A stretch of 64,000 nucleotides of DNA from Spirosoma spitsbergense DSM 19989 (GTDB lineage Bacteria; Bacteroidota; Bacteroidia; Cytophagales; Spirosomataceae), in contig NZ_KB893387.1 of the NCBI RefSeq assembly GCF_000374085.1, forward strand, positions 1 through 64,000, written 5' to 3'. This document shows, piece by piece, positions 3,655-51,303 of the stretch. How positions within the stretch are numbered: the stretch's first letter is position 1; the number at the start of each line of letters is the position of its first letter. The notes under the pieces are model-generated. The model was not told the DNA's origin. It made no database searches and saw only the letters and a list, made by a program, of their open reading frames with translations. The position numbers and the translations under genes were made by a program.

Positions 3655-4992
3655 TCACTCGTATCGAATCAACGCTTTCGTTTTTACCCGCCAGGTGCCA
3701 TTCTCCTGCACGGCTTCCCCATCCCGGCGCATAGCAATGCGGGTGTGCGTGCTGGAATAAGTATTCTCGCTGTCGCAGGCGGGTTCAATCATGTAATTAC
3801 GGTAGGTCAGGAAGCGGGCTAATCGATTCGGGTCGGCTTCGAACCGAAAGCTGGCCACCGTCGGTTTTTCGGCACTGATGCTAAACCGGTACGCTGACTC
3901 CGGGGAGATTACCTCAGATTTTTGCGACAGGTCGAACTGACCATTTGGATCGGGTGGCGGGAAATAAAACACCGCTGGTTTTGCTGGCGCAGCTACCGCC
4001 TGCAACGGCTCTGCTACCGGAGTGACTGCAATAGGGGGCAATGCCTGAACAGGTTCCGGCTTCTCAACAGGTTCAGTACGTACTTCGCCGGAGCGCATGG
4101 CGGAAGCCGGTTTTGACGTATTCTCCGTTACCTGTTGCTTTAGTTGACGAATAGCCGCCAGTGGATTAGCGGAACCCAACTCGGCCACAATCGCATCGTA
4201 GGCACTCACTTTCTGCCGGTACTCAGGCCGAACGGCATTAGTCATCGCATCAGTACCGGGTTTGTTCCGCTGGGCCGTTTCCAGCGAATTGCGTAATCGG
4301 TTATTGTCGGCTAGTAGTGCTTTTGCTTCTGCCTCAATGCCCCGGTAAAGGAGTAAATAGATGGCCCCCGCGCCGACCACCAGGCCAATAATGCCACTTA
4401 CAATCATCATCCAGAGTTGTTTTTCCTTGGTTTCTTTTACTTCGCGCTCCAACTGACCCATCTGAAATGTAGCCGGGTCGATGATCGCTTCATCGCCGGT
4501 AATAGCTGAACCAGCAGTTACGGTTGGATTACTCGAAACGGTGGGTGCTGGTTCTGTCGTTTCGGCGGGGGGTAACATCCGGTCAATCTTAGTCAGAATT
4601 TGCTGTTGTACGCTGGGCGGCAGGGCTTTCCGGTAACTTTCGTACGCTTTGTTTCGCTGATAGAACTGGGCAAGCTGTCGCCGGATAGCCGCGTTAGCCT
4701 CGGCTGGCCCCATACCAATAAAGGCTTTGGTATCCCGCAGTTGGCTTAGTTGCTGAATTCGCTGCCCTACCTGGTCCCAGCTTCCTACCGCCCGGATAAT
4801 TCCCTGTGCCTCACAGCCATCGCCACAATCCACTAGCTGAGTGTATATTTCCTGCGCTTTGGGTTGGTCGATAGTGGCGAAAACGGCCAGCGCCACCTCT
4901 TTCGTCAGGGTATCGACGGCGGCCTGATTGATGCTCTGGGCAGACGATAACGATGCCGATAGGATGAGTACTAAAAAGGGTAGTATTCGCAT
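3655..4992 (-). CDS. Membrane-anchored coiled-coil protein, last gene of the cytoskeletal operon
   Basis: A 445-residue protein of no recognised family. A cleavable signal peptide (MRILPFLVLILSASLSSAQ) is followed by a ~170-residue helical domain containing a Cys pair (DCGDGCEAQG). Next come a Pro/Thr linker and one transmembrane helix near residues 197-222 (WMMIVSGIIGLVVGAGAIYL). A Glu/Ala/Asn/Arg-rich coiled coil follows, then a Pro-rich linker, and a C-terminal ~110-residue domain starting near FYFPPPDPNG. The predicted topology is periplasmic N-domain and cytoplasmic C-domain, so it could link the filament-like proteins encoded upstream to the periplasm. Start 4992 is preferred over the ATGs at 5007 and 5004 because it gives a compact signal peptide. 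Confidence 0.7.
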   Translation of the reverse strand: MRILPFLVLILSASLSSAQSINQAAVDTLTKEVALAVFATIDQPKAQEIYTQLVDCGDGCEAQGIIRAVGSWDQVGQRIQQLSQLRDTKAFIGMGPAEANAAIRRQLAQFYQRNKAYESYRKALPPSVQQQILTKIDRMLPPAETTEPAPTVSSNPTVTAGSAITGDEAIIDPATFQMGQLEREVKETKEKQLWMMIVSGIIGLVVGAGAIYLLLYRGIEAEAKALLADNNRLRNSLETAQRNKPGTDAMTNAVRPEYRQKVSAYDAIVAELGSANPLAAIRQLKQQVTENTSKPASAMRSGEVRTEPVEKPEPVQALPPIAVTPVAEPLQAVAAPAKPAVFYFPPPDPNGQFDLSQKSEVISPESAYRFSISAEKPTVASFRFEADPNRLARFLTYRNYMIEPACDSENTYSSTHTRIAMRRDGEAVQENGTWRVKTKALIRYE

Positions 4993-5011
4993 ACTTCCTG
5001 TCATCATTTTG

Positions 5012-5127
5012 TGGTCAGTTGATTGTCATGTCATGGTCATTAATCGTCATTGTCAATCATTCCCTGCTTCACTACGAATGACAATGAATGACTAACAATG
5101 ACCACTGAATGCCTATACCATGACCAT
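5012..5127. repeat. Repeated-word imperfect hairpin (GTCATT/AATGAC type)
   Basis: The spacer between two minus-strand genes is almost entirely made of GTCAT/TGTCATT words (GATTGTCATGTCATGGTCAT, then TCGTCATTGTCAATCATT). Complementary AATGACAATGAATGAC words follow after a short centre near 5060-5078. It shares its word with the spacers at 2693-2805 and 8571-8682. A regulatory or RNA-processing role is inference. Confidence 0.65.
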
Positions 5128-5131
5128 TTAG

Positions 5132-8100
5132 TTACGCCAGTGCATTGGCCAGTTTGTTAATAGCTCCGATGAGTGGGTAGAAAAACAGGGTTTCTTCAAT
5201 GGGTGCGCCCAGCGCATCCGTCATCCCGCTGTACTCGGCGGCTACATCACCTTCTTTTCGCTGAATCCCATCCATGAGGGAGGTGTCCAGATGCGTCCGT
5301 AGTTCCTGCTGTGCAATGACCAGTGCCCGCGCCGAAACATTCAGATTACGAACGAAACTGAATTCCTGATTGACCGCGAAGAAAAAGTCGATAAACGCGT
5401 TGGTTTCTTTCAACAGGGACTGAACGACATCCGGCTTTCGCAGGTCGGCGTAGGTCAGTTTAGTGAACTCGTCATTGAAGGTAGCCGGATAAACATAGCT
5501 GATGGCTTCGGTATCCACCGGGCGGCTGTTGGCAGGCTGCATCAACGCCCCTTTGCAGGTTACCTCTTTTGGCCCTTTACGCTCATAAAACAGGGTTAGT
5601 CCGCTGGTGTCGTAGGGTTGCTCATACACCTTCTCAAAGATAACCCGTGCCAGTTTTCCCAGCATCTGATCGTCAGAACTGATGATGGTCAGGAGTTTGG
5701 AACCTGTACCACTAAAGGTGATGGCCCCCGGCAGGCTAATGCCCCGGTGCTTCATCAGTTGGGCAATGTGATACAGCAACGCGGTGTAGAACAGCACAAA
5801 GACGACTTTCAGGTCCTCATCCTTCGCCAGCATTCCGTTGAATGACAGCATGCTTTTGGCCTTTACATCATTACTTCTTTCGATGGAGAACCAGAACGCC
5901 ATGATGTCTTCCGAGCGGTTCGTGTCGAGCATCCGGCGGTTGTTGTCGCTCAGATTGCCCAGGCTCTGGCTTTCCAAAAGCGTTTGAATTTTATCGGCGT
6001 ATTTCCGAACGAAGCCGTTATGACTGGCCGCGCCGTACTCGCTGAAGGCGTCGCCGTAAATGGCGTTACCCGCAAAGCGGAAGGAGGTCAGCAGACGAGG
6101 TTCATTGCGTTCGTACACCACCACGTCAGACGTGCCACCACCAATGTCGATGTTGATAACCGGGCGGGCCGATGCGCTCAGCGTTGGATTCTGCTTGTAA
6201 TAATAAAATGGCGCTACCGACTCCGACACCTCACGCAAACGTCCTGCCGGCCCGCCAATATAACGGTCGTAAAGCAACTGCCAGTCGGCGCGGAGTTGAC
6301 TCACGCGACCGGGTGTCATACTGGCCGGGAAGAACCAGAACACCGTTGTCTGCAACAGATTACCGCCTTCGGTCAGCACTTTGTTCTTGATGAGCATTAG
6401 CAACTCTTCCAGGAACGCTTCCACGCGCCGTTCGGTCTGGTCGCTGGTTTTGGCCCATTTCAGGTTGGTGGTGATGCGGTTGGAACCCGCCGGTTGCCGT
6501 TCCACATAAAATGGAATGTTAAAGTCGGCCAGGGCCTGGGTTGGCTGATTGAAACTCAGGTTCATCGGTTCGGCAATGGCCGTGCGTGTCGGGAAACTAT
6601 CGGGTTTGCCGGGGCCAATGGTGGGCGGCACAAACTCCAGGTCGTACAGCAGGAACAACTCGAACAATGCCGGATTATACTGGGCCGGAGCTACCAGCGT
6701 AGCTACCTGCGGGGTTAGTTCGGCCACGTCGAAGGGGCGGGGCGTACTACCATCTACACTGTACTCGATGTGCGTATTGGTGGTGCCGAAATCGACCGAG
6801 AAGGCAAATTGCTTGCTGCCGCCGTTATATTCCTGCCAGCGCGGAACCAGCAGGCCGTTCATCTCGCGGCTATCGGCGCGGATGTTGGTTTGCAGGTAGT
6901 CGAACTCCTCACGCAGCACGTAATAGACGCTTGACCCGTCGGTATTCTGTTGCCGGACGGTGCGCTGATGCTTCGATTCAACCGTAATCGGCGTGTTGTT
7001 CTGTTCGCTGAGATACGTTAGTTCGTATTGATTCTGACTATCGAAACCGGCTTCAATCAACTCAATCCGGTAGTCGGCTGGAATGGTGACCGAGCCAGAC
7101 CGGACAAACGGATAAATATTGATCGTGAATGAGTTTTCAACAATGATACCTTCGTTGGTTGTTTCGTTGGGGGCCGCACCGGCACCCGCCGTTGAACTGT
7201 ACAGCCGCTCGAACGTGACGAACTGATTGCCGGGCTGGTTGGGGGCCGTAACAGGAATGTCGAGGGTTACGTTGATACCACCCGCCTGCGGGGTCATCTT
7301 CAGCCGGACGCGGCCCATGAACAGGTCATCGACGTCAAAAAAGTCAAAGAAATCTTTTTTGAGCGGTAATAGAAAGCCTTTCTCCGTAGCACCACTTTGC
7401 AGGTTACCGTCGAAAAAACGGCTCCGGTCGGTGGGGAAAGGTAGCCGAATAAGGTACGGCTCCAGAAAGTCGCTGACGGTAAGCCAGGGGTAGTTGCCCG
7501 GTTGCCCCGGCAAGGGTCGCTGGTTGTCACGCCACGATTCGCGGGCGTAGTACGGTACGGGTGTGTTCGAGTTCCACTGTGCCTGCGGTACGTAGGTGAA
7601 GGGCCGGAAAAAGCGGTTCTGCAACGCCATGGGGCGTGGTTTGCCCGGATTGAGTCGGGCGTACTTGTCCGACCGGATGATGAAATCACTCACCTGGTCG
7701 ATGGCGCGGGCATCGGATTTTTTCTTGCGAAGCGGGAAGCCCAGCACTTCTACAATATCGCCCGGTCCGGTGGTGAGTTCGTCAAAATCCTGGTCGAACT
7801 TCTCCCGCGTCAGCAACGGCTGCCCGTTTTGCGATTCGATATGTTCGTAAAACATCGTCGGGTTCTGCTGCTGCAACAGTTTCCGGCTCCGGTTCAGGTA
7901 GTCGTCTACTTCGCGGAAACGGTCCCGGAAGTTGGGCATGAACTGCTTGATGGCGTACCAGAATTTCTGGTACTCGATGTCGCGCTGGTGGAGCTGACAC
8001 ACCGACGCGTCGAACAGCCGGTCGTTACCCATCGAAACATCCATCCAGGTCAGGTCATTTCCCGAACTGAAGAACATCGTTTTGGGCGATGTGCCACCCA

Positions 8101-8566
8101 CCACCCGCCCCCGGTAACTCAGCACGAACAGCCGGTTGATGTCGCCAAAGTTGTACTCGGGCGCATCCTGGTCCAGAAAGAGTTTCAATGCATCGCCCAG
8201 TCGTTTATGACCGATGTTCGATGATTGCCGCAACTGGTCCAAGTCGGTGCGAACATCGAAGGGGGTGATGGTAATGTAGTTTTTGAGCTTGTCGTAGTTG
8301 AAGAATAACTCGCCTACGTCCAGTGCATCAGAAACGACACGCTGGTCGTTCACGGTGCCGTTGAGGTCGGGTTTGAGGGACAGGTTCAGGAAGGCCGAAC
8401 GCACCAGGTCCATCCGGGCAAACGGGCTTGGAATGGACGTTGGCTGCTTTACGGTCTGACCGCCCTGTGGGTCGCGGATGGCCGCAATCTGGTCTGTACC
8501 GAGGGGTCTGCTAACGTACCAATGCAGGCCAGGGGTAGGATTATGTAAGCTGAATGTTGTTGGCAT
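5132..8566 (-). CDS. Large actin/Hsp70-fold ATPase (SrfB-like)
   Basis: An 1144-residue protein. An actin/Hsp70 nucleotide-binding fold occupies the C-terminal half. The phosphate-1 loop FSVDFGTTNTHIEYSVDG is near residues 587-604, the phosphate-2 loop INIDIGGGTSDVVVYE near 799-814, and the adenosine motif ITFSGTGSKLL near 945-955. The first ~580 residues match nothing I recognise and are rich in Phe, Tyr, Asn and Arg. There is no signal peptide or membrane helix, so it should be cytoplasmic. The size and layout recall the virulence factor SrfB family, but this is by analogy. It lies between the tubulin-like gene (upstream) and the membrane coiled-coil gene, which suggests a filament or mechanical ATPase role rather than a chaperone. 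Confidence 0.75.
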   Translation of the reverse strand: MPTTFSLHNPTPGLHWYVSRPLGTDQIAAIRDPQGGQTVKQPTSIPSPFARMDLVRSAFLNLSLKPDLNGTVNDQRVVSDALDVGELFFNYDKLKNYITITPFDVRTDLDQLRQSSNIGHKRLGDALKLFLDQDAPEYNFGDINRLFVLSYRGRVVGGTSPKTMFFSSGNDLTWMDVSMGNDRLFDASVCQLHQRDIEYQKFWYAIKQFMPNFRDRFREVDDYLNRSRKLLQQQNPTMFYEHIESQNGQPLLTREKFDQDFDELTTGPGDIVEVLGFPLRKKKSDARAIDQVSDFIIRSDKYARLNPGKPRPMALQNRFFRPFTYVPQAQWNSNTPVPYYARESWRDNQRPLPGQPGNYPWLTVSDFLEPYLIRLPFPTDRSRFFDGNLQSGATEKGFLLPLKKDFFDFFDVDDLFMGRVRLKMTPQAGGINVTLDIPVTAPNQPGNQFVTFERLYSSTAGAGAAPNETTNEGIIVENSFTINIYPFVRSGSVTIPADYRIELIEAGFDSQNQYELTYLSEQNNTPITVESKHQRTVRQQNTDGSSVYYVLREEFDYLQTNIRADSREMNGLLVPRWQEYNGGSKQFAFSVDFGTTNTHIEYSVDGSTPRPFDVAELTPQVATLVAPAQYNPALFELFLLYDLEFVPPTIGPGKPDSFPTRTAIAEPMNLSFNQPTQALADFNIPFYVERQPAGSNRITTNLKWAKTSDQTERRVEAFLEELLMLIKNKVLTEGGNLLQTTVFWFFPASMTPGRVSQLRADWQLLYDRYIGGPAGRLREVSESVAPFYYYKQNPTLSASARPVINIDIGGGTSDVVVYERNEPRLLTSFRFAGNAIYGDAFSEYGAASHNGFVRKYADKIQTLLESQSLGNLSDNNRRMLDTNRSEDIMAFWFSIERSNDVKAKSMLSFNGMLAKDEDLKVVFVLFYTALLYHIAQLMKHRGISLPGAITFSGTGSKLLTIISSDDQMLGKLARVIFEKVYEQPYDTSGLTLFYERKGPKEVTCKGALMQPANSRPVDTEAISYVYPATFNDEFTKLTYADLRKPDVVQSLLKETNAFIDFFFAVNQEFSFVRNLNVSARALVIAQQELRTHLDTSLMDGIQRKEGDVAAEYSGMTDALGAPIEETLFFYPLIGAINKLANALA

Positions 8567-8570
8567 AATT

Positions 8571-8682
8571 TAGTAGTCATTCACCGTCATTTGTTGTCAT
8601 TACTGGTCACTCTGTCATTTTTGTTGATACTATGAATGACAATCAATGACGCGTAGCGAAAGACAATCAATGACATCTAATA
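8571..8682. repeat. Repeated-word imperfect hairpin (GTCATT/AATGAC type)
   Basis: The left part has five GTCATT/GTCACT words (AGTCATTCACCGTCATTTG and onwards). The right part has AATGACAATCAATGACG and a second copy of ACAATCAATGAC. It fills the spacer between the actin-like and tubulin-like genes and overlaps the last codons of the tubulin-like gene. It has the same word as the spacers at 2693 and 5012. Confidence 0.65.
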
Positions 8683-10167
8683 ATCTAATACTTTCGGGAG
8701 TTTCTCGTGGACGAATCGGTCGGTGCCTTCCGAGAATAACTGAATGAGTTTATCGGCTTCGCTACTGTAGGCTTTTCCTTCGGCGGTTTTATTGAGCGTC
8801 TGGTCGAAGTCGTCCACAATGTCGAACTTCACATCCGATTCACCCCCGAATAGTCCTTTCTTTTTGGGTTCGAATCCCCGGACGATATGGCCCAGATTGG
8901 GCGCGTCGAGCAGAAACGGTTCAAACGAACGCTTGTTCTCCCGCATCTCGGAAAGCCACTGCCGGAAGGCATTATCGAAGTTTCTGACGCTGTTGAAAAA
9001 GCCGGAGTTCAGGAAGGCGGTAGAAATAACGGGGTTGGCTTTCGACCACTGCACTGTACCGGCCGCCTGCTTAATCCGCTGATTCAGATACGTACTGAAC
9101 AGGGCCATTTTCGACAGCGGTAAACTGATGATTTGCTTTGTGGCATTGGCCATATTACCCAACTGAATGCTGATGCCGTCCTGCTCAATGCCAAATTCCT
9201 TATAGACCGGATTGTTGGGTTTACCGTTGGTGACGGACAAACTGTTATCGTCGGTATTCATAAAGTCGACGATGGCCAGGGCCGATGCCATTTCTACGAA
9301 GTGCGCTTCGTTTTTCTGGCCACCCGCACCGGGGTCGTAGGTGTACGCTTTGGTCTGGTCGTCGCCGATGTAGTATAGCGCGTTGACCGCCGGATTTACG
9401 CCTTTTTGGTAGTAGTTGAGTGCCGCTTTCGTTTTGGCAATAAACGAAGCGGGGTCAATCAGTTTGTTGTCGTTGGTCGTCAAGCTGAAGTACGGCATGA
9501 CCGACACCGCCCCGATTTTGGCATCGCGCAGAAACGCCGGATTCGGAATTTGCCCGATGGCCTGCGCTCCCCGAATGTTCTTGAGCAGAATGGGGAAACC
9601 AGCTGCGCCTGTACCGCCAAAAATGGAACTGACGATGAAAATCCGGTCGTTGGCTCCGAAGTTTTCGGCAAACGCCTGGAATACATCCGAGTTGCGAAAC
9701 TGGTTTAGCACGGTGCTGCCGATATTCGGATTTCCTACAAAGCCAATGTCCATCTTGGTTTCCAGATTCTCCTCCGAGAACAACAGACTGGCGAAGGCTT
9801 TGGCGGGGGCATCCATGCCATCGAAGTTGATATAATCCCGGAATTTCTCCTGCTGAACGCCCTGTAATTCAAAAACGTACGTGTCGGCAATGGTCGCATT
9901 ACCACCGATGGACCGGTTCAGGGTTTTGATTTCGGTACTGAAAAATCCCGCTGTGGGTTTGGTTTGAAGACCCGCCCGGATATTGCCGTATTCACGCAAC
10001 AGGTCTTTGGTCCGTAGCAGGTCGTCATTGTTGGCGTGAGGGTCCAGCACAATCGGAATAACCTCGTCCGTATTAGTCAGTTTTACGCCGGAAGCCAGTA
10101 AAAACGTCAGGGCTTTGAGCACCCGTGAGCCGGTTCCGCCAATAGCGAATACAAATAGTTTTGGCAT
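8677..10167 (-). CDS. Tubulin/FtsZ-like GTPase-fold protein
   Basis: A 496-residue cytoplasmic protein. It opens with LFVFAIGGTGSRVLKAL, a glycine-rich dinucleotide-type loop as in tubulin-superfamily N-termini. A second glycine loop, VSSIFGGTGAAGFPILLKNI, near residues 178-197 resembles the tubulin signature GGTGSG. This pairing fits the Tubulin_2-type families distantly related to FtsZ. The middle contains YFSLTTNDNKLIDPASFIAKTKAALNYY (in part), which would be the tubulin core. The protein is longer than FtsZ, and its C-terminus (KKKGLFGGESDVKFDIVDDF) is charged. The neighbouring vWA lipoprotein and actin-fold ATPase suggest a multi-component membrane-remodelling or scaffold system. GTP binding is inferred only from the motif. 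Confidence 0.75.
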   Translation of the reverse strand: MPKLFVFAIGGTGSRVLKALTFLLASGVKLTNTDEVIPIVLDPHANNDDLLRTKDLLREYGNIRAGLQTKPTAGFFSTEIKTLNRSIGGNATIADTYVFELQGVQQEKFRDYINFDGMDAPAKAFASLLFSEENLETKMDIGFVGNPNIGSTVLNQFRNSDVFQAFAENFGANDRIFIVSSIFGGTGAAGFPILLKNIRGAQAIGQIPNPAFLRDAKIGAVSVMPYFSLTTNDNKLIDPASFIAKTKAALNYYQKGVNPAVNALYYIGDDQTKAYTYDPGAGGQKNEAHFVEMASALAIVDFMNTDDNSLSVTNGKPNNPVYKEFGIEQDGISIQLGNMANATKQIISLPLSKMALFSTYLNQRIKQAAGTVQWSKANPVISTAFLNSGFFNSVRNFDNAFRQWLSEMRENKRSFEPFLLDAPNLGHIVRGFEPKKKGLFGGESDVKFDIVDDFDQTLNKTAEGKAYSSEADKLIQLFSEGTDRFVHEKLPKVLDY

Positions 10168-10168
10168 A

Positions 10169-10264
10169 ATAGGAGGTTTATGGTCTTTGGTCTATGGTTT
10201 ATGGTTGGCAAAAGCAGAAATATGCGTTAGCCGACCATGAACCGAAAACTATAAACAATGAACT
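10169..10264. repeat. Repeated-word imperfect hairpin (TATGGTT/AACNATA type)
   Basis: The spacer starts with TTTATGGTCTTTGGTCTATGGTTTATGGTTGG and ends with complementary ACCATGAACC and AACTATAAACAATGAAC. It is the same architecture as the other spacers of this operon but uses a different word. A 61-codon plus-strand ORF over it is a by-product of the repeat. Confidence 0.55.
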
Positions 10265-10708
10265 TTATTTAGATGGCCAGAGCATGGGCCGGTGTTTGGC
10301 ATTTTTACTGAAATTCTTCATGACCATCGAGATGATGAAGAAAATGACGGCTGTTAACAAGGCCATCTCGAAGGCGTAACTGAAAAAGACGCTGATGCCC
10401 TGGTCGAAGAGGGTACCCTGATTGGGGTCTGCTTCGTCGCGGAGAATTTCCTGATTTGCTTTCTGATAGCAGGTAACCAGTGCAATCAGGAACAGGACCA
10501 GCGCACTGATGCCCATCATAAGCAGCCATTTGCCCATACCGCTGAAACTCACTTTATTGAGCGGCCAGATGTAAAAGGCAAACGTCACGAGCAAGGCAAT
10601 ACCAACGGCGGTCCAGGTCAGGGGCGACAGCAGTTCTTCCTGATACAAATCTTCGAGCAGGTTGCTGTTGACAAACAGGTTGTAAAAGTTATAAAGGGAT
10701 TCTTCCAT
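10265..10708 (-). CDS. Small three-helix membrane protein of the cytoskeletal operon
   Basis: A 147-residue integral membrane protein with three predicted helices: WTAVGIALLVTFAFYIWPL near 27-46, WLLMMGISALVLFLIALVTC near 58-78, and a third near 108-134 (FEMALLTAVIFFIISMVM). The start at 10708 (MEESLYNFYNLF) is chosen because all upstream in-frame sequence lies inside the spacer hairpin and would encode low-complexity F/R/S/L residues. No family is recognised. Its position between the vWA lipoprotein and the tubulin-like protein suggests it anchors or connects the two across the inner membrane. Confidence 0.7.
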   Translation of the reverse strand: MEESLYNFYNLFVNSNLLEDLYQEELLSPLTWTAVGIALLVTFAFYIWPLNKVSFSGMGKWLLMMGISALVLFLIALVTCYQKANQEILRDEADPNQGTLFDQGISVFFSYAFEMALLTAVIFFIISMVMKNFSKNAKHRPMLWPSK

Positions 10709-10812
10709 ATTTAAAGAGCGAAAGAATGAAAGAGTGAAGGAGCGAAAGAAAAGCGTCAGCCGGTATATCGGACCATCACTCATTCGCTCATTCGCTCTTT
10801 CACTCTTTCATT
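10709..10812. repeat. Repeated-word imperfect hairpin (GAAAGAGCG/CGCTCTTTC type)
   Basis: The left arm is AAAGAGCGAAAGAATGAAAG followed by AGTGAAGGAGCGAAAGAAAAG. The right arm is CTCATTCGCTCATTCGCTCT followed by TTCACTCTTTCATTTG. The arms can pair over more than 35 bases with mismatches. The right arm supplies the stop and last codons of the vWA-like lipoprotein gene. A closely related word occurs at 24318-24385. Confidence 0.7.
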
Positions 10813-12311
10813 TGAATGGTTAGCGTGAAATACTCGGTTTGGTTATTGGGGTTATAGGCTCGTTCTACGCCTTGCAGCAGGTTTTGAATGCCGAACGTTG
10901 AACTGGCATCGGGCGAAGTATCATTGGTTGTGTTGGTGTTGGCAATCCAGCGGGGCGGAAACTGCCGCTTTAGCCGGATGGTGGCCGTGCGTTCCCCACG
11001 AGCGGGTTTGCTGGTTGTCAGCAATAGTTTATGGGTCGTACCGTTGGCTCCGGAATACGGCTGAACCGCTGTTACCCGGAAATTATCTTTTCCCACAACT
11101 TCATACTGGCTGGGGTCAGTGAGTAGCGACGCGGGAAGGCGTAGAGCCGACAAATCGACCGCAATGGGAATCGTCAGGCTTTTGTCCGCTACGTCGGGCT
11201 GTACATCGGTTATTGAACGAACCGCTTTGTCGTGATTCCGAATTTCGGCATCCGATCGTTTGAAGCGGCCTTTTCGGGCCGGGTCAGTGACCAGTATGCT
11301 ATAAAACGGCATTATAGCTTTCGAATCCCGCCCGAAAAACCACGAATTTTCGTAACCCGGCAACTGGTCGAACCGGCGGATAGTCTCATAGGTCGCGTCC
11401 TGATACAGTTGCTGCATGGTTTCGTTGCGGGCAATCAGGCAGAGGTAATAGGGGCGGTCGCCGGTGTACTTTTTCTTCGCATTATTCCAGCTATAATACG
11501 TACCGTCATATCCACCTTCCAGTTTTATAACTAGCATGGAGTGTGTGCCGGCGTAGGGATTGAACACGGTGGTCAGGAGTGATGTAGCGGCATCCAGTGT
11601 TTTCTGGGCACTCATGCCGGTCAGGCTGGGGTCGGAGTAGATCAGGTCGGACACCAGCACGCTCAATTCGTTGCCGGACGTGTTGCTGAGAATGTCGCTG
11701 AAAATCTTTTCGAAATCCGTACTGGTTGTTTTGCCCTTCGTTTTGGCGACCGTAAAGATGTTATTTTCCTTGAAAAACTGGGGTAACGACAGGCCCAGGT
11801 CATTCACTTCGGTATTGACCACATAGAGTTTAGGTTGCCCTGGATTCACTGCGTCAAACTCCGTCAGTACGTCGTTGAGGGTCCGTTTAAAGGTACCATT
11901 CCCACCCGGAACATCGTAGGGGAACATGCTGGCACTGGCTTCCAGGTAGAGTTTTAGCCGGATGGGCTGGCTCGATGTAGCCGTAGACGACTCGTCTATC
12001 GCGGGCGCTTTGCCAATTTTTGACAGCTTACGATAGGACCGGTTCCGCTTGATATAAGCCGTCAGAGCTGCTTCGCTCACTTTGCCATCGGGCGTAATAA
12101 GCGTGGCGGTTTTCTGTTCTTTGCTCAGTTCCTTGCTTTTACTGACAATAAATACGCGCAACGCATCTTTCTCGGTCACATCGAGGGCATTGTCATTTTC
12201 CAGCGATTCGCTGATTTGGGTGTCCAGGTCATCGGCTGAATTGGAACAACTGGACAGCCCGACTGCTGACAGAAACAGAAAGAGCCATAAATACAGACGG
12301 GACTGATGCAT
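10800..12311 (-). CDS. vWA-like lipoprotein, first gene of the cytoskeletal operon
   Basis: A 503-residue lipoprotein. The signal peptide LYLWLFLFLSAVGLSSCSN ends in a lipobox, so the start at 12311 (MHQSR) is preferred over the TTG/ATG starts further upstream. A von Willebrand A-like domain begins near residue 115. Its first strand carries LKLYLEASASMFPYD, a MIDAS-like E-x-S-x-S in place of D-x-S-x-S. LSVLVSDLIYSDPS further on matches the later vWA strand with its conserved Asp. The C-terminal ~150 residues appear beta-rich (KLLLTTSKPARGERTATIRL). It should sit in the periplasm or on a membrane face. It heads the five-gene minus-strand operon. vWA proteins are known partners of FtsZ-like families in predicted membrane-remodelling systems. 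Confidence 0.75.
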   Translation of the reverse strand: MHQSRLYLWLFLFLSAVGLSSCSNSADDLDTQISESLENDNALDVTEKDALRVFIVSKSKELSKEQKTATLITPDGKVSEAALTAYIKRNRSYRKLSKIGKAPAIDESSTATSSQPIRLKLYLEASASMFPYDVPGGNGTFKRTLNDVLTEFDAVNPGQPKLYVVNTEVNDLGLSLPQFFKENNIFTVAKTKGKTTSTDFEKIFSDILSNTSGNELSVLVSDLIYSDPSLTGMSAQKTLDAATSLLTTVFNPYAGTHSMLVIKLEGGYDGTYYSWNNAKKKYTGDRPYYLCLIARNETMQQLYQDATYETIRRFDQLPGYENSWFFGRDSKAIMPFYSILVTDPARKGRFKRSDAEIRNHDKAVRSITDVQPDVADKSLTIPIAVDLSALRLPASLLTDPSQYEVVGKDNFRVTAVQPYSGANGTTHKLLLTTSKPARGERTATIRLKRQFPPRWIANTNTTNDTSPDASSTFGIQNLLQGVERAYNPNNQTEYFTLTIQMKE

Positions 12312-12636
12312 GAATTGGGTTTTCGGGAAGTTAAGCATGCCATTGACAGGCGGTAAATGTAGTAAATCGGGCATGTACAGCCTTACCATTCGCTAAGTGA
12401 CCTTAAATTTTCTTAAATTACTCGTTAACGTAACGAAGCCGCCAGCCATTTTATGTCAACCGGTACAACTAAACGATAAACGGTCGTTTACCTTTGTACT
12501 GCGATTATATAGTATACTATCTATTTCTTTGCCGACTCTGACCAACCCAGCCCCCCCTAAAACGGGAGCGGCTAAAAAACACTCTATAATGAGCCTTTCT
12601 ATGTTAGGAGGGGTTGGGGCGGTAATTACATCAACC
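12312..12636. other. Divergent intergenic region with a promoter box and a C-rich/G-rich inverted repeat
   Basis: This 325-bp region lies between the divergent starts of the vWA-like operon and the Ig-like lipoprotein. It holds TACCTTTG at 12489-12496, which fits the TAnnTTTG -7 consensus for the plus-strand gene. No good -33 box was seen. At 12541-12562 a C-rich arm (ACCAACCCAGCCCCCCCTAA, approximately) faces a complementary G-rich arm (TTAGGAGGGGTTGGGG) at 12604-12619. It is another long intergenic quasi-palindrome. Plus-strand codons through it are open but give no plausible protein. Confidence 0.5.
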
Positions 12637-14388
12637 ATGACGCTCCGCCACTTCGTACTACTGCTGTCTTTATCATTGCCTCTGTTCCTGCAAAACTGTG
12701 CCCAGGTAGCTCAGCCACCGGGCGGTAAAAAAGATACCATCGCCCCCAAAGTGGTGGAGAGTATGCCAAAATTCCGTCAGTTGAATTACCAGGGCAAAAC
12801 CGTTGAACTTGAGTTTGACGAGTACGTGAACAGCGAGAATCTCCAGCAAAAAATTACCATTACCCCACAGGATAGCAATACGTTCATTGTTAAAACACTC
12901 CCGCTGGGCATTCGGTTAAATTTTGCCAAACCTTTTCTGCCCAATACCACCTATACCATTGACTTTTCTGATGGTATAAAGGATATTACCGAACGGAATA
13001 TTGCTAAAAATACGAAGGTCGTTTTTAGTACCGGGCCGTTTATCGACTCACTGTCTCTGGCGGGAAATGTGGTGGACGATGAGACCCGCCGGCCGTTGCT
13101 GGGCTTTGTCGTGGGTCTTTTCGCTTCCACCGATACGTTGCCCATCAACCGGAAACGCCCACAGTATTTTGCCCGGACGGATAGTAGTGGGAATTATCGC
13201 ATCGAAAATGTAAAGGCTGGTCTGTATAGAGTATATGGGTTCGACGATAAAGATCTGAATCTGGTGAACAACACACCAGGCGAGCGCGTGGCCTTCCGGG
13301 ATAGCGTGCTAAACCTGAATAAAAACTACGTAGACATCAACATGGTAGCCTTCCGTGGGTATGGAAAGCCGCGCGTTAGCCGACGCGAACGCACCGACGA
13401 AACCCTGGGACTGGAACTGAGCAGCGGCATTGCCGATTACAAAATACGCTTTGGCAAAATGGTCTCTACAACGGCAACGTCTACGTCGGCCACCTCTACA
13501 ACGGCTGTGTCCACGTCGGCCGTATCCGCGTCGGCAACCCCAACGAAGGTGACATCGACCTCGTTTTCTGCTTCGGGCGATACACTGGTGTCGTTTCTGG
13601 AAACGCCTAAAATGATTCGGTTGTACCGTCCGGCCGACCGGGCAGCTGATGACACCATCCACGTGGTCATCATGGCCGAAGATTCGGTGGGTAACGTTAC
13701 CGAACTGCGGGAACGCGTTTATTTTTCTCCGCTGAAAACAAAGGCTAAAAACAGAACGCCACTCACCGTGCAGATAACCCCACAAGCGGGTGAGCCGATA
13801 GACCGAAATCTGGATTTTACCCTAGTCTTCAATAAACCGGTATTTCAATTTAAAACGGAACAGCTCATTATCGGTCCGGATAGCACGAAGCCGCTCAAAT
13901 TGACAGCCGAAAACCTGACCTGGAGTAATAATCACTCACGCCTGGTTATCCGGAAAGCCACGAACCTTCGAGACACTCTTCTGTTCCGAATTCCGAAGGG
14001 AGCCTTCATCAGCGTTCAGGGCGATACACTGGCCCGGTATTCGTCCCGGTACATCATTGCCGAAGACGACAGCTATGGTCTAATTGCCGGTAACGTTAGT
14101 CCGGCTACCATTGGCACGGCGGGCAGTAAATTCATCGTCGAATTGCTGGATGAAAAGTATACCGTTGTTCGAACAGCGTACGGAGAAGCGAACTACAGTT
14201 TCGGGCGATTAAAACCGGGCCTGTACCGCGTCCGGCTGATTATCGACAGCAACGGCAACAAAAAGCGGGACATTGGCAATGTGCAAAAGGGCGTCCAGCC
14301 GGAGCGGATTATCTACGCCCCCGGCACGGAAGAGGACGGAACGATACGGGTTAAGCAGAATTTCGAATTGACCGATATTGATTTTTGA
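12637..14388 (+). CDS. Ig-like (Big_5 type) surface lipoprotein
   Basis: A 583-residue exported protein. The signal peptide LRHFVLLLSLSLPLFLQNC ends at a Cys that would be lipidated. It is followed by the PPGGKKDTIAPKVVESMP segment typical of Bacteroidota Big_5/SbsA-Ig lipoproteins. At least two Ig-like domains are seen (about 25-130 and 395-490), with a carboxypeptidase-regulatory-like fold between (VDDETRRPLLGFVVGLF). A Thr/Ser/Ala low-complexity insert lies near residues 278-310. The reading frame is open upstream to 12397, but that part crosses an inverted repeat and lacks a signal peptide, so 12637 is the start. The function is unknown, probably cell-envelope associated. Confidence 0.75.
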   Translation: MTLRHFVLLLSLSLPLFLQNCAQVAQPPGGKKDTIAPKVVESMPKFRQLNYQGKTVELEFDEYVNSENLQQKITITPQDSNTFIVKTLPLGIRLNFAKPFLPNTTYTIDFSDGIKDITERNIAKNTKVVFSTGPFIDSLSLAGNVVDDETRRPLLGFVVGLFASTDTLPINRKRPQYFARTDSSGNYRIENVKAGLYRVYGFDDKDLNLVNNTPGERVAFRDSVLNLNKNYVDINMVAFRGYGKPRVSRRERTDETLGLELSSGIADYKIRFGKMVSTTATSTSATSTTAVSTSAVSASATPTKVTSTSFSASGDTLVSFLETPKMIRLYRPADRAADDTIHVVIMAEDSVGNVTELRERVYFSPLKTKAKNRTPLTVQITPQAGEPIDRNLDFTLVFNKPVFQFKTEQLIIGPDSTKPLKLTAENLTWSNNHSRLVIRKATNLRDTLLFRIPKGAFISVQGDTLARYSSRYIIAEDDSYGLIAGNVSPATIGTAGSKFIVELLDEKYTVVRTAYGEANYSFGRLKPGLYRVRLIIDSNGNKKRDIGNVQKGVQPERIIYAPGTEEDGTIRVKQNFELTDIDF

Positions 14389-14432
14389 CCCAACGGGGTT
14401 TCTTTCCCGGAGAGAAGTGCCCGTTATATCGG

Positions 14433-17400
14433 TCAGTTGCCCACTCCACCCCCCCCCGGCGTTTCAATGCGTATCCGCTCACCGGTTTGCATGGCCCGCG
14501 TGAAAATTCCGGGTAGTGATGCTGTCCGGCCATCGGCAAAAATCAGCGTCTGCTGGCCTGTTTTACCCGGCTCCCCGCCGTTTAATCCATAAGGAGCAAT
14601 GACCCGGTGCTGGCTCAGCAGGGTTGCCTGAACGGGTTCCAGAAACTCCATTTCGCGGATGATACCGTCGCCCCCGCGCCACGTTCCCGTGCCCCCGGAA
14701 CCCGTACGAATGGCGAACTGATGCAGCCGAACCGGGTAACGCCGTTCGAGTTCTTCGGGGTCGGTGAGTTTGGTGTTGGTCATGTGCTGATGCACCGCCG
14801 AACGCCCATCTGTTCCCACGGTAGCCCCGGCCCCTCCGCCAATGGTTTCGTAGTACCCGAAGGGTTTCGTGGTAGTCGAACTGCCGGACAGGTTCGATTG
14901 GCCGAACAGAAAATTATTCATCGTCCCCTGGCTACAGGCGGCTAGACCAAGAGCCTTCAGCAATGTATCCACCAGTCGCTGACTCACTTCGGTATTGCCG
15001 CCCACCACGGCGGGGCACAGAGCAGCCTCATCCTGAAAGACCGGATTCAGAAACGAGGCATCCGGCAAAATCAACGTTACGGGTGCCATTAACCCCTCGT
15101 TCAGCGGGATGTCCCGCCCGCACCACAGCCGGAGAACGTACAATACGGCACTGTAGAGTATCGAGATATTGGCATTGAGGTTGTTCGGATGAACGCCCGA
15201 GGTGCCGCTGAAATCGAACTGAATGCGGGGACTGCCCTGTTTGGTTGCGTCCGGTTCTTCCGTAGAAATGTCAATTCGCAGTTTTATCCGGTGCCCATCG
15301 TCCAGCGATTCTTCGGCGGTAAACTGCTGACCCGCCAGGGGTTGTAATACGGCGAGTATCGCATCTGTTGCCGACTGTTGCAGTCGCTTCATGTACGTCT
15401 GTACCGTGGCTAATCCGTACTGGCGCACCAGGTTTTGCAGGGCTTTCTCGCCCGATTGTAAGGAAGCCAGTGCGGCCTCAATGTCGGCGCGGTTTTCGGC
15501 CAGAGACCGGGTAGGGTAGGGGCAATCGGTAAATCGACGGGCAACACCTTGTTGCGGCCCATCGCTGGCATCATCCCACAGGAATTTACCGGCTTTCGCG
15601 ATGTAGATTGGTTCCAGCACCACGCCTTCTTCTGCCAGCGATGTCGCATCGGGCGGCATGGAACCGGGGACTTTACCGCCAATTTCGGCGTGGTGCGCCC
15701 GATTAATCACGTAGCCAATAAGTTGCGGATTACCGTCGTAGGTATCGTCGGTAAAAACACCGCTTAGCAATGTAACATCGGGCAGGTGAGAGCCGCCGTA
15801 TTTCGGGTGATTCGTGATAACTACATCGCCGGGTCCGATGGGGATTTTAGCCAGTATCAGGCGGGCACAGATGCCCAGGCTACCCAGATGAACCGGAATA
15901 TGCGGGGCGTTCGCTACCAGTTCGGCGTTGGCGTCGAGGAGGGCGCAGGAGAAATCGAGTCGCTCTTTTACGTTGACAGAAAAGGCCGTTCGCTGGAGTT
16001 GCGTACCCATTTCTTCGGCAATGGCCCGGAATCGCTGGGTGAATAGCTCGAGCTGAATCACCTCATCTGACGCCTGAATGGTTATTTCCTCTGTGTCCCG
16101 GATATAATCAACCAGTGCATTTTTATCCGCCTGAATAACAATCCGCCAGCCGGGTTCGATAAAAGCCGAGGAAGTTGTATTCAACAGCAGAGCGGGTCCC
16201 CGAAAGGTGTCGCCTTCCTGCAATTGCGTCCAGTCGAATGCGGGGTAGGTATCGGTCTGAAAGGTAGGTACGGCATGGCGGTGAATCACGGGCGGACTAC
16301 TTACCGGCTGGTCGGCTCCCGTCGTACTGACGATAACCCGGATGCTTTCCACCTCAATAGGGCGTTGCTGCCCCGCATGCTGACCGGGGAAATGACCATA
16401 AAGCTGCCGGTACTTTTCCTGAAAGTCGGCGGCTAACGCTGGACCGAACGGAACCTCGACGGTGGACTCCTGCCCAAGCAGTCTCAGAAAGACGGACCGG
16501 GTTTTGGTGGCAACGGGCACACCAGGACCAACGTCCTGCCGCAGTGCCTGTGTAGCGGTATCAATCAGTTCATCGACTAAGGCAGGCAGGTCATTTTCTG
16601 TATCAGTCAATAACCTCAATACCGACACGGATGCCAGGCGTTCAATCTGCGCCTGCCCAATGCCGTAGGCACTCAATAACCCACCATCGAAGGGTAAAAT
16701 CAGTCGTTCCATGCCCAGTTGTCGGGCAATGGCACAGCCATGAAGGCCACCCGCTCCCCCGAACACCAGCAGATGATAGTCTGTTGGATCGAAGCCCCGG
16801 GCAATGGAAATCTTGCGAATGGCCCCCGCCATGGTTTCGTTGGCAATCTGTTCAAAGCCGCGTAGTATGGTTAGCGCATCGGGCTGGATACCAGTCAGCG
16901 TACCAATTTGCCCGATAATCTGCTGGAGGGCAACGGCTGCTTTGTCGGGGAAAACCGGAATGCCGAACTGCTTCGGGTGTAGTTTACCCAGTAATAAATT
17001 GACGTCGGTAATGGTGAGCAACGGGGGTTGACCGGGTGCCGTGGCCCCGTAGCAGGCCGGGCCGGGGTTAGCCCCCGCACTGTGCGGCCCCACGCGCAAC
17101 TGACCGCTAGCGGCACCGTGTGTTTCAAACCAGCAAACAGACCCACCACCGGCGGCCACCGTTTCGATGGCCAGGGAGGGCAACTGCAAATCGAACGGAC
17201 CTATTCGGGTCGTGAAGCGATAATCTACCTCCCCGTCAATCCGGGCCACGTCGGTGCTGGTGCCCCCCATGTCGAGGGTGAGCACGGGCTGCCCGTTTCC
17301 GATAGCGGCTGCCCCGATAACGCCCCCCGCCGGGCCGCTGAGCAGGCTGTCTTTCGGCTGGAACAGGTCCGCCCGCACCAGCCCGCCTGAACTGGTCATT

Positions 17401-33678: not shown

Positions 33679-33694
33679 TCTTGCTGAAAGGCAA

Positions 33695-33770
33695 AGCTTT
33701 AGGGGTGCCCAACCGGGCTGAGAGATCACCCTTTGAACCTGAACAGGATAATACCTGCGGAGGGAAAAGC
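33695..33770 (+). ncRNA. TPP riboswitch (THI element)
   Basis: AGGGGTGCCC at 33701-33710, GGGCTGAGAGATCACCC at 33716-33732, TTTGAACCTGAACAGGATAAT and ACCTGCGGAGGGAA at 33753-33766 form the conserved TPP aptamer. The pyrimidine-sensing CTGAGA and the pyrophosphate-sensing CCTGAACAGGATAATACC(T)GC elements are both present. It precedes thiS by about 140 bases and would repress the operon when thiamin pyrophosphate is abundant. The spacer after it has no clear terminator; control may be at translation or by a hairpin I cannot score. Confidence 0.92.
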
Positions 33771-33906
33771 GAGAATACTGGCTTGATAAGAATTTTGTGC
33801 GGTCTCCTGACCGCCTTATCGGCGCTACTCGTTTTTTACCCGCTTTCCTTATTCGTCCGGTTCGTTCCCCTACGCTTGTGTGTTTGGCGCTACTATGCAC
33901 AAGACC

Positions 33907-36777
<2,871 letters not shown>

Positions 36778-36781
<4 letters not shown>

Positions 36782-37407
36782 CTATCAGAACCTTACACTA
36801 TATTGCCACCCGACCCGAGCAGGCCGAAATCGCCTGCCGGGCGGGTGTCGACTGGGTCCAGCTACGGCTGAAGAACCGGACCTATGCCGACTGGAAAACC
36901 GTCGCGCTGGAAATACTGGCCGTCTGCCGTCAATATAACGCCCGCCTTATCATCAACGATAATCCGCATCTGGCGGGCGAGATTGGGGCGGATGGCGTCC
37001 ATCTGGGTCAGGAGGATATGCCCGTTCGGGAAGCCCGCGCCCTGCTGGGGCCGGGTGTTATCATTGGCGGCACGGCCAACACGGCCGATACAATAGTGGC
37101 CCACCAGCGCGACGGGGTCGATTACGTTGGCTTGGGACCGTTTCGGTTTACAGCCACCAAAGAAAAGCTAAGTCCGATATTGGGGCTGGCTGGCTATCGG
37201 CGCGTATTACTGGCTGTTCAACAGCAGGCGGTAACCTTACCGATTATTGCTATTGGGGGTATCACCCTGGCCGATGTGTCGGAACTCATTCGGGCTGGCC
37301 TGCACGGTATCGCCGTATCATCGGCCATTACGGACGCCCCCGATCCAGCTGCCCAGACACGGTTATTTCTATCACAACTAACCCTGGCACCAAATCATGT
37401 TCACTAA
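36778..37407 (+). CDS. thiE: Thiamine-phosphate synthase ThiE
   Basis: A 209-residue TIM-barrel enzyme joining HMP-PP and thiazole phosphate. Motifs: [53 protein letters not shown] and [17 protein letters not shown], followed by [17 protein letters not shown]. All the expected substrate residues appear. It overlaps thiG by 11 bp. Confidence 0.93.
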
Positions 37408-38188
37408 GCAGACAACGAATCCGCTGGTTATTGCCAGCAAATCATTTTCGTCCCGGCTCTTTACCGGAACGGGTAAATTTGGTTCTGCCCAGCTGATGGC
37501 AGATGCGCTGCTGGCATCAGGTACCGAGTTAGTAACCGTTGCCCTGAAACGAATTGATGCCTTTAACAGACAGGATGACCTACTGGCTCACCTGGCGCAT
37601 CCCCGGTTCAATTTACTGCCCAATACATCTGGCGTCCGGACGGCTAAGGAAGCCGTGTTTGCCGCTCAGATGGCCCGTGAAGCGCTGGAAACAAACTGGC
37701 TTAAACTGGAGATTCACCCCGACCCGAAATACCTCCTGCCCGATCCAATAGAAACGTTGAAGGCGGCCGAAGAGCTGGTAAAACTCGGGTTCGTGGTCCT
37801 GCCTTACATCCATGCCGACCCGGTACTGTGTAAACGACTGGAAGAGGTAGGCGTGGCCGCCGTAATGCCCCTCGGTGCCCCTATTGGCACCAATAAAGGG
37901 CTAAAGACTGTTGACTTTCTGGAGATTATTATTGAGCAAAGCCGGGTTCCGGTCGTTGTGGATGCCGGTTTGGGAGCACCGTCCCACGCGGCTGCGGCTA
38001 TGGAGATGGGCGCCGATGCCGTGCTGGTGAACACGGCCATTGCCGTTTCCGATGATCCGGTGCGGATGGCTACGGCATTCAAACTGGCCGTGGATGCGGG
38101 CCGGTTGGCCTACGAAGCCCGACTGGCACGTCCGTCGGTGGTGGCCCATGCCAGTAGTCCGTTCACTGCTTTTCTGGATGAACTATGA
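37397..38188 (+). CDS. thiG: Thiazole synthase ThiG
   Basis: A 263-residue TIM-barrel enzyme forming the thiazole ring from DXP, dehydroglycine and ThiS thiocarboxylate. The catalytic Lys is in [13 protein letters not shown]. Other motifs: [54 protein letters not shown] and [20 protein letters not shown], with [11 protein letters not shown]. Full length and intact. The last codons overlap thiH by 4 bp. Confidence 0.95.
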
Positions 38189-39321
38189 GCACGCACACCT
38201 GGTTTGATACCTATGACTGGGATACCGTTCAGCGCGCTATCTATACAACGACCGCCCGGCAGGTAGAGCGGGCCCTGAGCAACAGCCGCCGGACCCTCGA
38301 CGATTTCCAGGCCCTGATTTCACCGGCTGCGCAGGCCTACCTGGAGCCAATGGCCCAGTTGAGCCACCAGTTAACGCAAAAACGGTTTGGCAAAACCATT
38401 CAACTCTACGCGCCCCTTTACCTCTCCAACGAGTGCCAGAACATCTGTACCTACTGCGCGTTTAGCCTTGATAACCGAATTAGTCGGCGGACGCTTACCG
38501 ATGAGGAGATCCTGCGCGAAGCTACTGCCGTGAAAGAACTTGGGTACGACCATATTCTGCTGGTAACAGGTGAAGCAAACCAGACCGTTGGCGTACCCTA
38601 TCTGAAGAATGCCATCCGGCTACTACAACCGCACTTTGCCCATATCTCCATGGAGGTTCAGCCCCTGGATCAGCCCGAGTATGAGGAACTTATTGCAGAA
38701 GGGCTCAACACGGTACTTGTTTATCAGGAAACGTACCACCGCGAAACGTATAGGAATCACCATCCGAAGGGCAAAAAATCTAACTTTTTATACCGGCTCG
38801 ATACCCCCGACCGACTTGGAAAAGCGGGTATCCATAAAATGGGCCTGGGTGCCCTGCTGGGCCTGGAAGACTGGCGTACGGATAGTTTTTTTACGGCCGC
38901 CCACCTCCACTATCTGGAACGTATGTACTGGGAAACCCGGTATAGCATCTCGTTCCCGCGGCTGCGCCCCATTGACCTGTTACAAAACGATACGATTACC
39001 TCAAAATCCTTTGAACGGTGCATGACGGATCGTGATCTGGTGCAATTGATTTGTGCCTACCGGCTCCTCAATGAGGAGGTTGAGTTATCGTTGTCAACCC
39101 GCGAAACACCCCGTTTCCGGGATCATGTACTCAAACTAGGTATTACCAGCCTGAGTGCAGGCTCGAAAACCAATCCGGGTGGCTACACTGTTGAACCCCA
39201 GTCGCTGGAACAGTTCGCCATTTCCGACGAGCGCAGCCCGGCTCAGATGGTCGATGTTATCCGGCGGCAGGGCTACGAGCCGGTTTGGAAAGACTGGGAT
39301 AAAACACTGACAGGCGTATGA
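38185..39321 (+). CDS. thiH: 2-iminoacetate synthase ThiH (radical SAM)
   Basis: A 378-residue radical SAM tyrosine lyase that supplies dehydroglycine for ThiG. The SAM [4Fe-4S] motif is [16 protein letters not shown] (C-x3-C-x2-C) near residues 82-90. The following [13 protein letters not shown] and [20 protein letters not shown] match the family. The use of ThiH rather than the ThiO oxidase is typical of Bacteroidota. Overlaps both neighbours by 4 bp. Confidence 0.94.
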
Positions 39322-49764: not shown

Positions 49765-49822
49765 CGTTTTTAAGTTTTTTATTGGATAGAACTACGCTTT
49801 CACTGCCAGCGCCAGGGGCTGA

Positions 49823-50857: not shown

Positions 50858-51303
50858 GGATAAGTTGACGCAAACAAGCACCAGAAGAGGAACAAACCCC
50901 TTTTGTCTTCTTTGCCTTAATGAGCGAAATAATGGACTATTCTGGTCGAGAAACCCTTTTGTGAAGAAACCCTGACTTATCTACTAATTCAGGGTTTGCT
51001 GGCTGGCTAAAGCAATCAAATTAAGCCGGAAAGATTGCTATATAGCTTATTTGGGCGATAAATTCAATACCGTACGCTACAATTAAGTTGGTCGGTTTTA
51101 GTGTAACACCAAACCGACCAACCAATTGACTTTCTTGGTGTGGTAAAAACGGAAAGCTTAGTGACCGGAGAACGCAATGGCAGGCAGGCTTCACCTGATC
51201 CTGTTACTGTATGCCGTTTACGGGTGGTAGGGTAACAGCTACCCGGCGAAGTTTTTTTTATTTTATGACTAAGTGGCTGGTTAGTAGGTGATAGCCCATA
51301 CGC
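50858..51303. other. Intergenic region with two hairpins and no gene
   Basis: Two inverted repeats occur. AAACCCTGA (50967-50975) faces TCAGGGTTT (50989-50997). GTTGGTCGGTTT (51087-51098) is perfectly complementary to AAACCGACCAAC (51111-51122) with a 12-base loop. The minus-strand ORF over 51064-51312 has no plausible protein features. A promoter for the SprF gene should lie here but I cannot place it. Confidence 0.5.

Follow-up and report, generated by a model that had tools for sequence, protein, structure and literature searches.

A tubulin-fold and an actin-fold protein in a conserved five-gene cassette of Spirosoma spitsbergense: a candidate envelope-anchored assembly

Proposed role of the cassette

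We analysed positions 1-64,000 of contig NZ_KB893387.1 (the window, 64 kb) from Spirosoma spitsbergense DSM 19989 (assembly GCF_000374085.1), which carries a cassette of five genes on the minus strand at 3655-12311. In the order of that strand, they encode a vWA-like lipoprotein, a small membrane protein with three predicted transmembrane stretches (3-TM), a tubulin-fold protein (TUB), an actin/Hsp70-fold ATPase (ACT) and a coiled-coil membrane protein (CC). Our explanation, which we hold tentatively and at somewhat less than an even chance, is that the cassette encodes one envelope-anchored assembly with two nucleoside triphosphatases that couples the outside of the cell to its inside and serves surface behaviour. 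In such an assembly, TUB would bind GTP and assemble on the inner face of the inner membrane, while ACT would sit beside it, as FtsA does beside FtsZ, and spend ATP on tethering the assembly or remodelling it. Across the membrane, the connection to the vWA-like lipoprotein would be made by the 3-TM protein and the conserved C-terminal domain of CC, which its topology places in the cytoplasm; the lipoprotein itself might bind a partner in the envelope. The likeliest use would be to organise or power a surface function, for example motility or appendages, and surface behaviour is a more likely use of the cassette than division.

Conservation of the cassette

A preliminary description of this DNA had placed five minus-strand genes in a row; all five open reading frames (ORFs) are present and the cassette is conserved. 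We scored gene order in 85 loci, 75 of which hold TUB; the S. spitsbergense cassette itself is not among the 75, the duplicate loci L035 and L037 were excluded and loci that end early were counted. Loci L017-L047 supplied the gene-order profiles and so match them by construction, and the loci were fetched by a TUB or ACT match, so that the adjacency of ACT and TUB is independent only in the sense of each search. ACT lies downstream of TUB, on the same strand and within 9.5 kb, in 74 of the 75 TUB loci, and the gene order, whose conservation the preliminary description had proposed as a check, thus holds far outside the strain. The vWA-like gene is found upstream in 69 of these loci; the 3-TM gene is present in 65 and the CC gene in 63. 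The ACT start is at most 400 bp from TUB in 62 of the 71 loci having at least 5.5 kb downstream, and the spacing between the two genes in relatives runs from a slight overlap up to more than 100 bp; spacers within the S. spitsbergense cassette are about 90-125 bp.

The same pairing appears when the search starts from ACT. Of the 30 strongest loci from an order-wide search of 148 genomes, 27 had TUB at most 2 kb upstream on the same strand, two had no TUB in the stretch (L117 and L121) and one reached a contig end (L134). The weaker ACT matches of this search were largely short and lay in frames of FtsA or MreB length. We also observed a divergent ACT-like family of about 1150 residues (loci L135-L144), with TUB within the fetched stretch in 3 of 10 loci.

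All 36 Spirosoma genomes contain TUB, 29 of them the same type (at least 86% identity) and seven a type that is 38-41% identical, which suggests that the cassette serves a needed resident function in the genus. The TUBs of S. spitsbergense and S. luteum DSM 19990 share 96% identity, and a scan of named genomes gave 17 loci, every one from Spirosoma. One genome (G607) has TUB in two frames and another (G593) has a second copy, 52% identical. At 7818-15026 of the Spirosoma telluris locus (L063), the vWA-like, TUB and ACT genes are each in two or three frames with the 3-TM and CC genes intact, from decay or assembly errors. Flanking genes are common to many loci. Beyond the genus, a search with the single TUB sequence was positive for 27 of the 61 family genomes and for 6 of 198 in a phylum sample, and a profile search found it in 13 of 395, S. 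spitsbergense being included in both phylum counts. One Prevotella record (L077) has all five genes. No TUB match occurred among 50,697 phage records.

Comparison of the loci shows that the cassette genes are inherited together. Across 66 loci, distances between TUBs and between ACTs correlate with r 0.985, a value reached in 0 of 2000 permutations and much of which shared genome ancestry alone can give. Median identity within Spirosoma is 90.5% for TUB, 89.8% for ACT, 84.8% for the 3-TM protein, 75.9% for the vWA-like protein and 53.2% for CC; the vWA-like protein thus diverges about like a flanking gene (75.5%), and CC is the fastest.

Predicted folds of TUB and ACT

TUB (8677-10167, minus strand, 496 residues) was assigned from its ORF, an alignment, Pfam, a structural model and Foldseek. 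The AlphaFold2 model (predicted local distance difference test, pLDDT, 84.6; predicted template-modelling score, pTM, 0.89) gave 22 matches to the PDB at E <= 0.001. Among the 50 matches listed, 49 name FtsZ, CetZ, tubulin or microtubules, and the remaining one is an egg cytoplasmic-lattice chain. Template-modelling scores (TM-scores) were low, 0.20-0.29 by query and 0.22-0.45 by target, and a large part of the chain therefore appears to differ from the PDB matches. Two loops, GGTG (residues 10-13, then R15) and FGGTG (residues 183-187), are invariant across 24 aligned sequences and correspond to T1 (GGTGSR, 10123-10140) and T4 (FGGTG, 9607-9621). Pfam PF00091 matched 24 of 24 TUBs at E <= 0.1 (best 4.8e-6), the S. 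spitsbergense protein scoring 18.8 bits, under the cut-off of 33. Tubulin_2 matched 23 of 24 at the same threshold (best 3.2e-9); here the S. spitsbergense TUB gave 17.5 bits, under the cut-off of 27, and there was no match in its genome at E <= 0.001.

ACT (5132-8566, minus strand, 1144 residues) was characterised from its ORF, an alignment, a model and PDB matches. The model (pLDDT 81.0, pTM 0.63) gave 337 PDB matches at E <= 0.001, with MreB, DnaK/Hsp70, ParM and actin on top (best 1e-7) and TM-scores by query of merely 0.13-0.20; the fold resembles DnaK/Hsp70 about equally with MreB. The ATPase core occupies the C-terminal half, where conserved alignment columns read DFGTTN (phosphate-1, 6776-6793), DIGGGTSD (phosphate-2, 6125-6148) and FSGTGS (adenosine-type). 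Among ACTs of at least 1000 residues, our motif patterns found phosphate-1 in 64 of 77 and phosphate-2 in 72 of 77. Before phosphate-1 there is a large N-terminal extension of about 580 residues.

Searched against the PDB as sequence profiles, both proteins gave weak matches (best E 0.058, to FtsZ, for TUB and 4.8e-4, to MreB, for ACT), and their folds consequently rest mainly on the models. By prediction and comparison, TUB has a tubulin/FtsZ-type nucleotide-binding fold with T1 and T4 glycine loops, and ACT an actin/Hsp70-type (ASKHA) ATPase core with phosphate-1, phosphate-2 and adenosine motifs. This agrees with the preliminary description, which had presented a tubulin/FtsZ-like protein with two glycine loops and an 1144-residue actin/Hsp70-fold ATPase with three nucleotide motifs and had made structure prediction for the 496-residue protein a decisive check; a tubulin fold is present in that model.

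Two adjacent genes of these types raise the thought of a second FtsA-FtsZ-like system for cell shape or septation. The adjacency of TUB and ACT mirrors that of ftsA and ftsZ, and 13 of 22 ACTs match Pfam FtsA at E <= 0.1, although the S. spitsbergense ACT reaches only 18.3 bits, under the cut-off of 31.8, and only over residues 806-839. We consider such a system very improbable, given that the genome has its own ftsA-ftsZ, that 382 of 395 phylum genomes are without a TUB match, and that the likeness of ACT to the genome's own FtsA is limited to 36 columns around phosphate-2.

The lipoprotein and the two membrane proteins

The vWA-like lipoprotein (10800-12311, minus strand, 503 residues) belongs to an ORF spanning 10800-12389, and a start at 12311 agrees with the lengths of its relatives. 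It has a lipobox (LSSC) and, at 11925-11942, a motif EASASM resembling the metal ion-dependent adhesion site (MIDAS), which reads ExSxSM rather than DxSxS. The first residue of this motif is E in 62 of 70 loci and D in six, both cyanobacterial plasmids among them; the motif was not found in two. Of the earlier call as a vWA-like lipoprotein, the ORF, lipobox and MIDAS-like motif hold, whereas a vWA match from Pfam is missing in 22 aligned sequences, so that the vWA label comes from the motif alone.

The 3-TM protein (10265-10708, minus strand, 147 residues) lies in an ORF spanning 10265-10783; most Spirosoma relatives have a start equivalent to 10708. Three hydrophobic stretches, as first described, are seen in most relatives by a crude hydropathy count. 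CC (3655-5007, minus strand, 450 residues) was followed through its ORF and aligned relatives; its signal peptide, one transmembrane stretch (about residues 200-222) and coiled coil, all identified by eye, bear out what had been proposed for it. The C-terminal domain is the most constant part of CC across 13 aligned sequences.

Genes downstream of the cassette

In relatives, the cassette is often followed by a MotA/MotB-like pair resembling ZorA and ZorB, with a ZorA-like gene in 24 and a ZorB-like gene in 19 of the 75 TUB loci. The ZorA-like consensus is PLYLGLxGTFLG...GVxIAM and the ZorB-like one FFWPSYxDLMT with an OmpA-type tail; their likeness to the MotA and MotB helices was judged by eye. 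PADLOC names ZorB in all six ZorB-like proteins tested (E 7e-8 to 2e-27) and ZorA in five of eight ZorA-like proteins (best 1e-8), with none for L046, L116 and L146. Several families of the order have these genes, as do three genomes further away (L146, L147 and L149). In L147, there is no ACT, TUB is split and the genome has 13% contamination; in L149, the ZorB-like gene comes first.

In this longer form, the pair with its OmpA-type domain might add ion-driven force or an envelope signal to the assembly. It is quite unlikely, in our estimate, that the longer form is an ion-powered motor in which a wall-anchored MotA/MotB-type stator drives, or is gated by, the cytoplasmic tubulin-fold/actin-fold assembly. 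If true, this would be a bacterial machine in which a proton or sodium motor is coupled to the two cytoskeletal folds.

OmpA-type genes had been recorded before in a related context. Makarova and Koonin (2010) reported FtsZl1 in the company of vWA, kinase, GTPase and OmpA-type genes and suggested a role in membrane remodelling (PMC2875224), and the OmpA-family proteins recorded at that time beside FtsZl1 may be such ZorB-like proteins. The cassette could by the same proposal be a membrane-remodelling or vesicle system, since TUB is of the same superfamily, has a vWA-like partner and is accompanied by OmpA-type domains in relatives. We consider this improbable: the proposal was based on gene context, one reviewer of that paper favoured transport or signalling (PMC2875224), and none of the five proteins matched a family of dynamin or vesicle type.

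Other genes at the 3' side vary. In 13 of 18 Spirosoma loci (L036, L048-L064), CC is followed by genes for a retropepsin-like aspartyl protease that is a lipoprotein (c9) and a WG-repeat protein (c5); of the five loci without them, two end early. In S. spitsbergense, c9 and c5 are together on another contig, beside two genes resembling their usual neighbours (by eye), and we therefore regard them as separable from the cassette. At 1017-2908 of L034 (genome G244), three related genes lie downstream of a distant TUB-ACT pair; one of them was tested and is TerD (Pfam E 1.4e-70), a hint that the Ter stress systems may be connected. Trypsin-like proteases are found downstream of the cassette in L118 (1902-2990) and L125 (12645-13703).

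The downstream genes could also mean that the cassette is an anti-phage or conflict system, in which the vWA-like lipoprotein or the ZorAB-like pair would sense envelope damage, nucleotide-driven assembly of TUB and ACT would set a threshold and the variable 3' genes would act as effectors. The ZorA/ZorB-like genes after the core, the TerD, retropepsin-like and trypsin-like neighbours, the patchy spread outside the genus and the occurrence on cyanobacterial plasmids are all in favour, and conflict systems with tubulin or HSP70 have been proposed by Kaur et al. 2020 (PMC7159879). Nevertheless, we find this unlikely. For none of the five cassette proteins was a PADLOC family found at E <= 1, and on this ground we reject membership in a known defence system; Pfam recognised no Zorya effector (ZorC/ZorD or ZorE) in ten cassette and downstream proteins of five loci, two of the downstream ones being metabolic or general enzymes (kynureninase-like and prolyl oligopeptidase). 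In addition, the presence in 36 of 36 Spirosoma genomes, with shared flanks in many loci, is unlike a typical defence island, TUB is missing from the phage records, and the phenotype in Synechocystis concerns motility.

Relatives in cyanobacteria

A plasmid of Picosynechococcus (L078) carries, in order, a vWA-like gene (8e-13), a membrane protein, TUB (2e-54), ACT (3e-34) and CC (3e-9). On a Gloeothece plasmid (L079), TUB (3e-56) and ACT (3e-21) are together, with a vWA-like gene on the opposite strand. The Pfam labels on these two plasmids are Tubulin_2 for the TUBs (3e-4 and 2e-10; 40.8 bits for L079) and FtsA for the ACTs (4e-5 and 0.003).

In Synechocystis, Sll0445, Sll0446 and Sll0447 are labelled Tubulin_2, FtsA and DivIC, respectively; these proteins associate with pilus-assembly proteins, and interrupting each of the three genes impairs phototaxis and alters photosystem II fluorescence (PMC9880817). 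We favour a surface function for the cassette because of this trio, whose labels are the same, whose mutants lose phototaxis and whose proteins are found with the pilus-assembly proteins. The genes sll0443-sll0449 are listed as one seven-gene transcription unit with a putative CRP site, as are slr2015-slr2018 (PMC2633013). Sll0445 and Sll0446 are named among the proteins deregulated in a comFB mutant (PMC12313861), and a LexA transcriptome table includes sll0443, sll0444, sll0445 and sll0448 (PMC4759255).

Evidence against the proposed role

A number of observations weigh against an envelope-anchored assembly serving surface behaviour. Some concern the link to Synechocystis: Sll0445-Sll0447 are likened to the cassette by domain labels and order, not by sequence, and only its position and its coiled coil equate Sll0447 with CC. 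In L079, the protein at the place of CC has a DivIC label (0.004) and matches neither the CC alignment nor the CC of L078, which itself receives no DivIC label. The phototaxis phenotype, accompanied as it is by a photosystem II effect, may be indirect. Others concern the motor-like pair. Part of the ZorA matches fall in the coiled-coil tail, including the best one (1e-8), Pfam gave no MotA/ExbB match in two ZorA-like proteins, and OmpA was under the cut-off in two ZorB-like ones. No ZorA-like gene was found in 18 Spirosoma loci (three end early) and no ZorB-like gene in the S. spitsbergense genome. The nearest relative outside Spirosoma (L038) has both genes immediately after CC, from which it is likely that Spirosoma lost the motor-like genes and kept the core.

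The remaining points concern the proteins themselves and their distribution. The spread is patchy outside the genus (27/61 family and 13/395 phylum genomes), and the vWA-like protein of S. spitsbergense, like its relatives without a Pfam vWA family, has no Pfam match of any kind. Comparison of TUB with the genome's own FtsZ by hhalign was not significant (probability 0.4, E 0.13). Of 72 TUBs at least 440 residues long, 71 showed no FtsZ-like T7 motif, the pattern NxD[FY]x[DE] being our own choice modelled on FtsZ, as the other motif patterns are likewise our own.

The preliminary description had pictured a two-filament machine. In view of the T7 result, filaments are a conjecture, and TUB and ACT could be a switch rather than a polymer, acting as subunits driven by GTP and ATP, or as a chaperone, within a membrane complex that works without filaments. 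This overlaps with our explanation and differs in mechanism. The large N-terminal extension of ACT and its match to DnaK/Hsp70 about as good as to MreB also fit a switch, and we hold it to be quite possible; it has to be set against the statement of the authors of PMC2875224 that every tubulin-superfamily member so far characterised makes filaments. We still prefer, tentatively, the assembly that couples the two sides of the envelope.

Other features of the window

Between the vWA-like and 3-TM genes, inverted repeats and folding energy predict an RNA hairpin at 10713-10812 on the minus strand (-46.5 kcal/mol, z -6.6, none of 200 shuffles equally stable), made of GAATGAGCGA-type repeats. Short repeats of the AATGACAATGAATGAC type are seen at 5071-5102, in the spacer between ACT and CC, and at 8629-8674, between TUB and ACT. 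The promoter scan (10 versus 7.9 in shuffles) and the terminator scan (13 versus 11.3) were near shuffle level.

Elsewhere in the window, a thiamine pyrophosphate (TPP) riboswitch (71.7 bits) lies at 33691-33782 on the plus strand, before genes at 34113-40391 that resemble a thiamine biosynthesis operon by eye. The minus strand at 46318-50881 encodes, also by eye, a PKD-repeat protein of 1148 residues with a tail of the gliding/type IX secretion system (T9SS) type, adjoining a PorP/SprF-like gene.

Comparison with known systems

A literature search of open PMC papers recognised no description of the five-gene set or of a tubulin-stator link. The nearest known systems are of several kinds. FtsA and FtsZ are the textbook actin/tubulin pair, and the cassette resembles them in having adjacent actin-fold and tubulin-fold genes. 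It differs in that ACT is more than twice the length of FtsA, TUB is without the FtsZ-like T7 motif and the cassette is additional to the genome's own ftsA and ftsZ, the ORFs of which are 70 bp apart. The preliminary description had considered both folds in one operon unusual; this does not hold, because of the ftsA-ftsZ pair in the same genome and the tubulin/FtsA-like/coiled-coil trio already in print for Synechocystis (PMC9880817), and the two folds together are not unusual in themselves.

The Zorya system is similar in that relatives of the cassette have a MotA-like and MotB-like pair beside the core. In contrast, no Zorya effector was seen in the scanned loci, tubulin and actin folds are there instead, and the pair is absent from the examined Spirosoma loci; tubulin is not named in the main text of a Zorya paper (PMC11890865). 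Among the GTPase systems of Kaur et al. 2020 is a class in which tubulin and HSP70 occur, two themes that they call non-overlapping in the accessible part of that paper (PMC7159879). The likeness is in tubulin with vWA near the membrane and in HSP70 within the same class, and the difference is the GAP1/TRAFAC GTPase core there, no GTPase family being found among the five cassette proteins.

The trio Sll0445-Sll0447 is alike in having Tubulin_2, FtsA and DivIC labels in the order TUB, ACT, CC. Tubulin_2 proteins are described in a survey of tubulin evolution as scattered and divergent (PMC9871819). With the FtsZl1/Tubulin_2 and vWA operons, finally, the cassette shares the diverged tubulin GTPase domain and, in relatives, OmpA-type domains, beside a neighbour that is vWA-like by motif, and the link to FtsZ-like/vWA systems suggested at the outset is upheld by the Tubulin_2 matches, sub-threshold in S. 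spitsbergense itself. It differs in three respects. TUB has about 500 residues, without the long coiled-coil tail described for FtsZl1 (PMC2875224): after residue 450, the model has helices of at most 20 residues and not the extended coiled coil and helical C-terminal domain of FtsZl1. No protein kinase or P-loop GTPase is among the five cassette genes, and the cassette has an actin-fold partner, of which the part of PMC2875224 at hand makes no mention for FtsZl1 operons.

In 2010, gene context led to a proposed function for diverged bacterial tubulins with vWA partners. For one branch of these tubulins, the cassette now defines conserved partners, an actin-fold ATPase and two membrane proteins, often joined by a motor-like pair, and it points to a tractable mutant phenotype in Synechocystis, by which function becomes testable. 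The FtsZl1/vWA systems were already known in 2010; what is new here is the ZorA/ZorB-like pair that follows the cassette in relatives.

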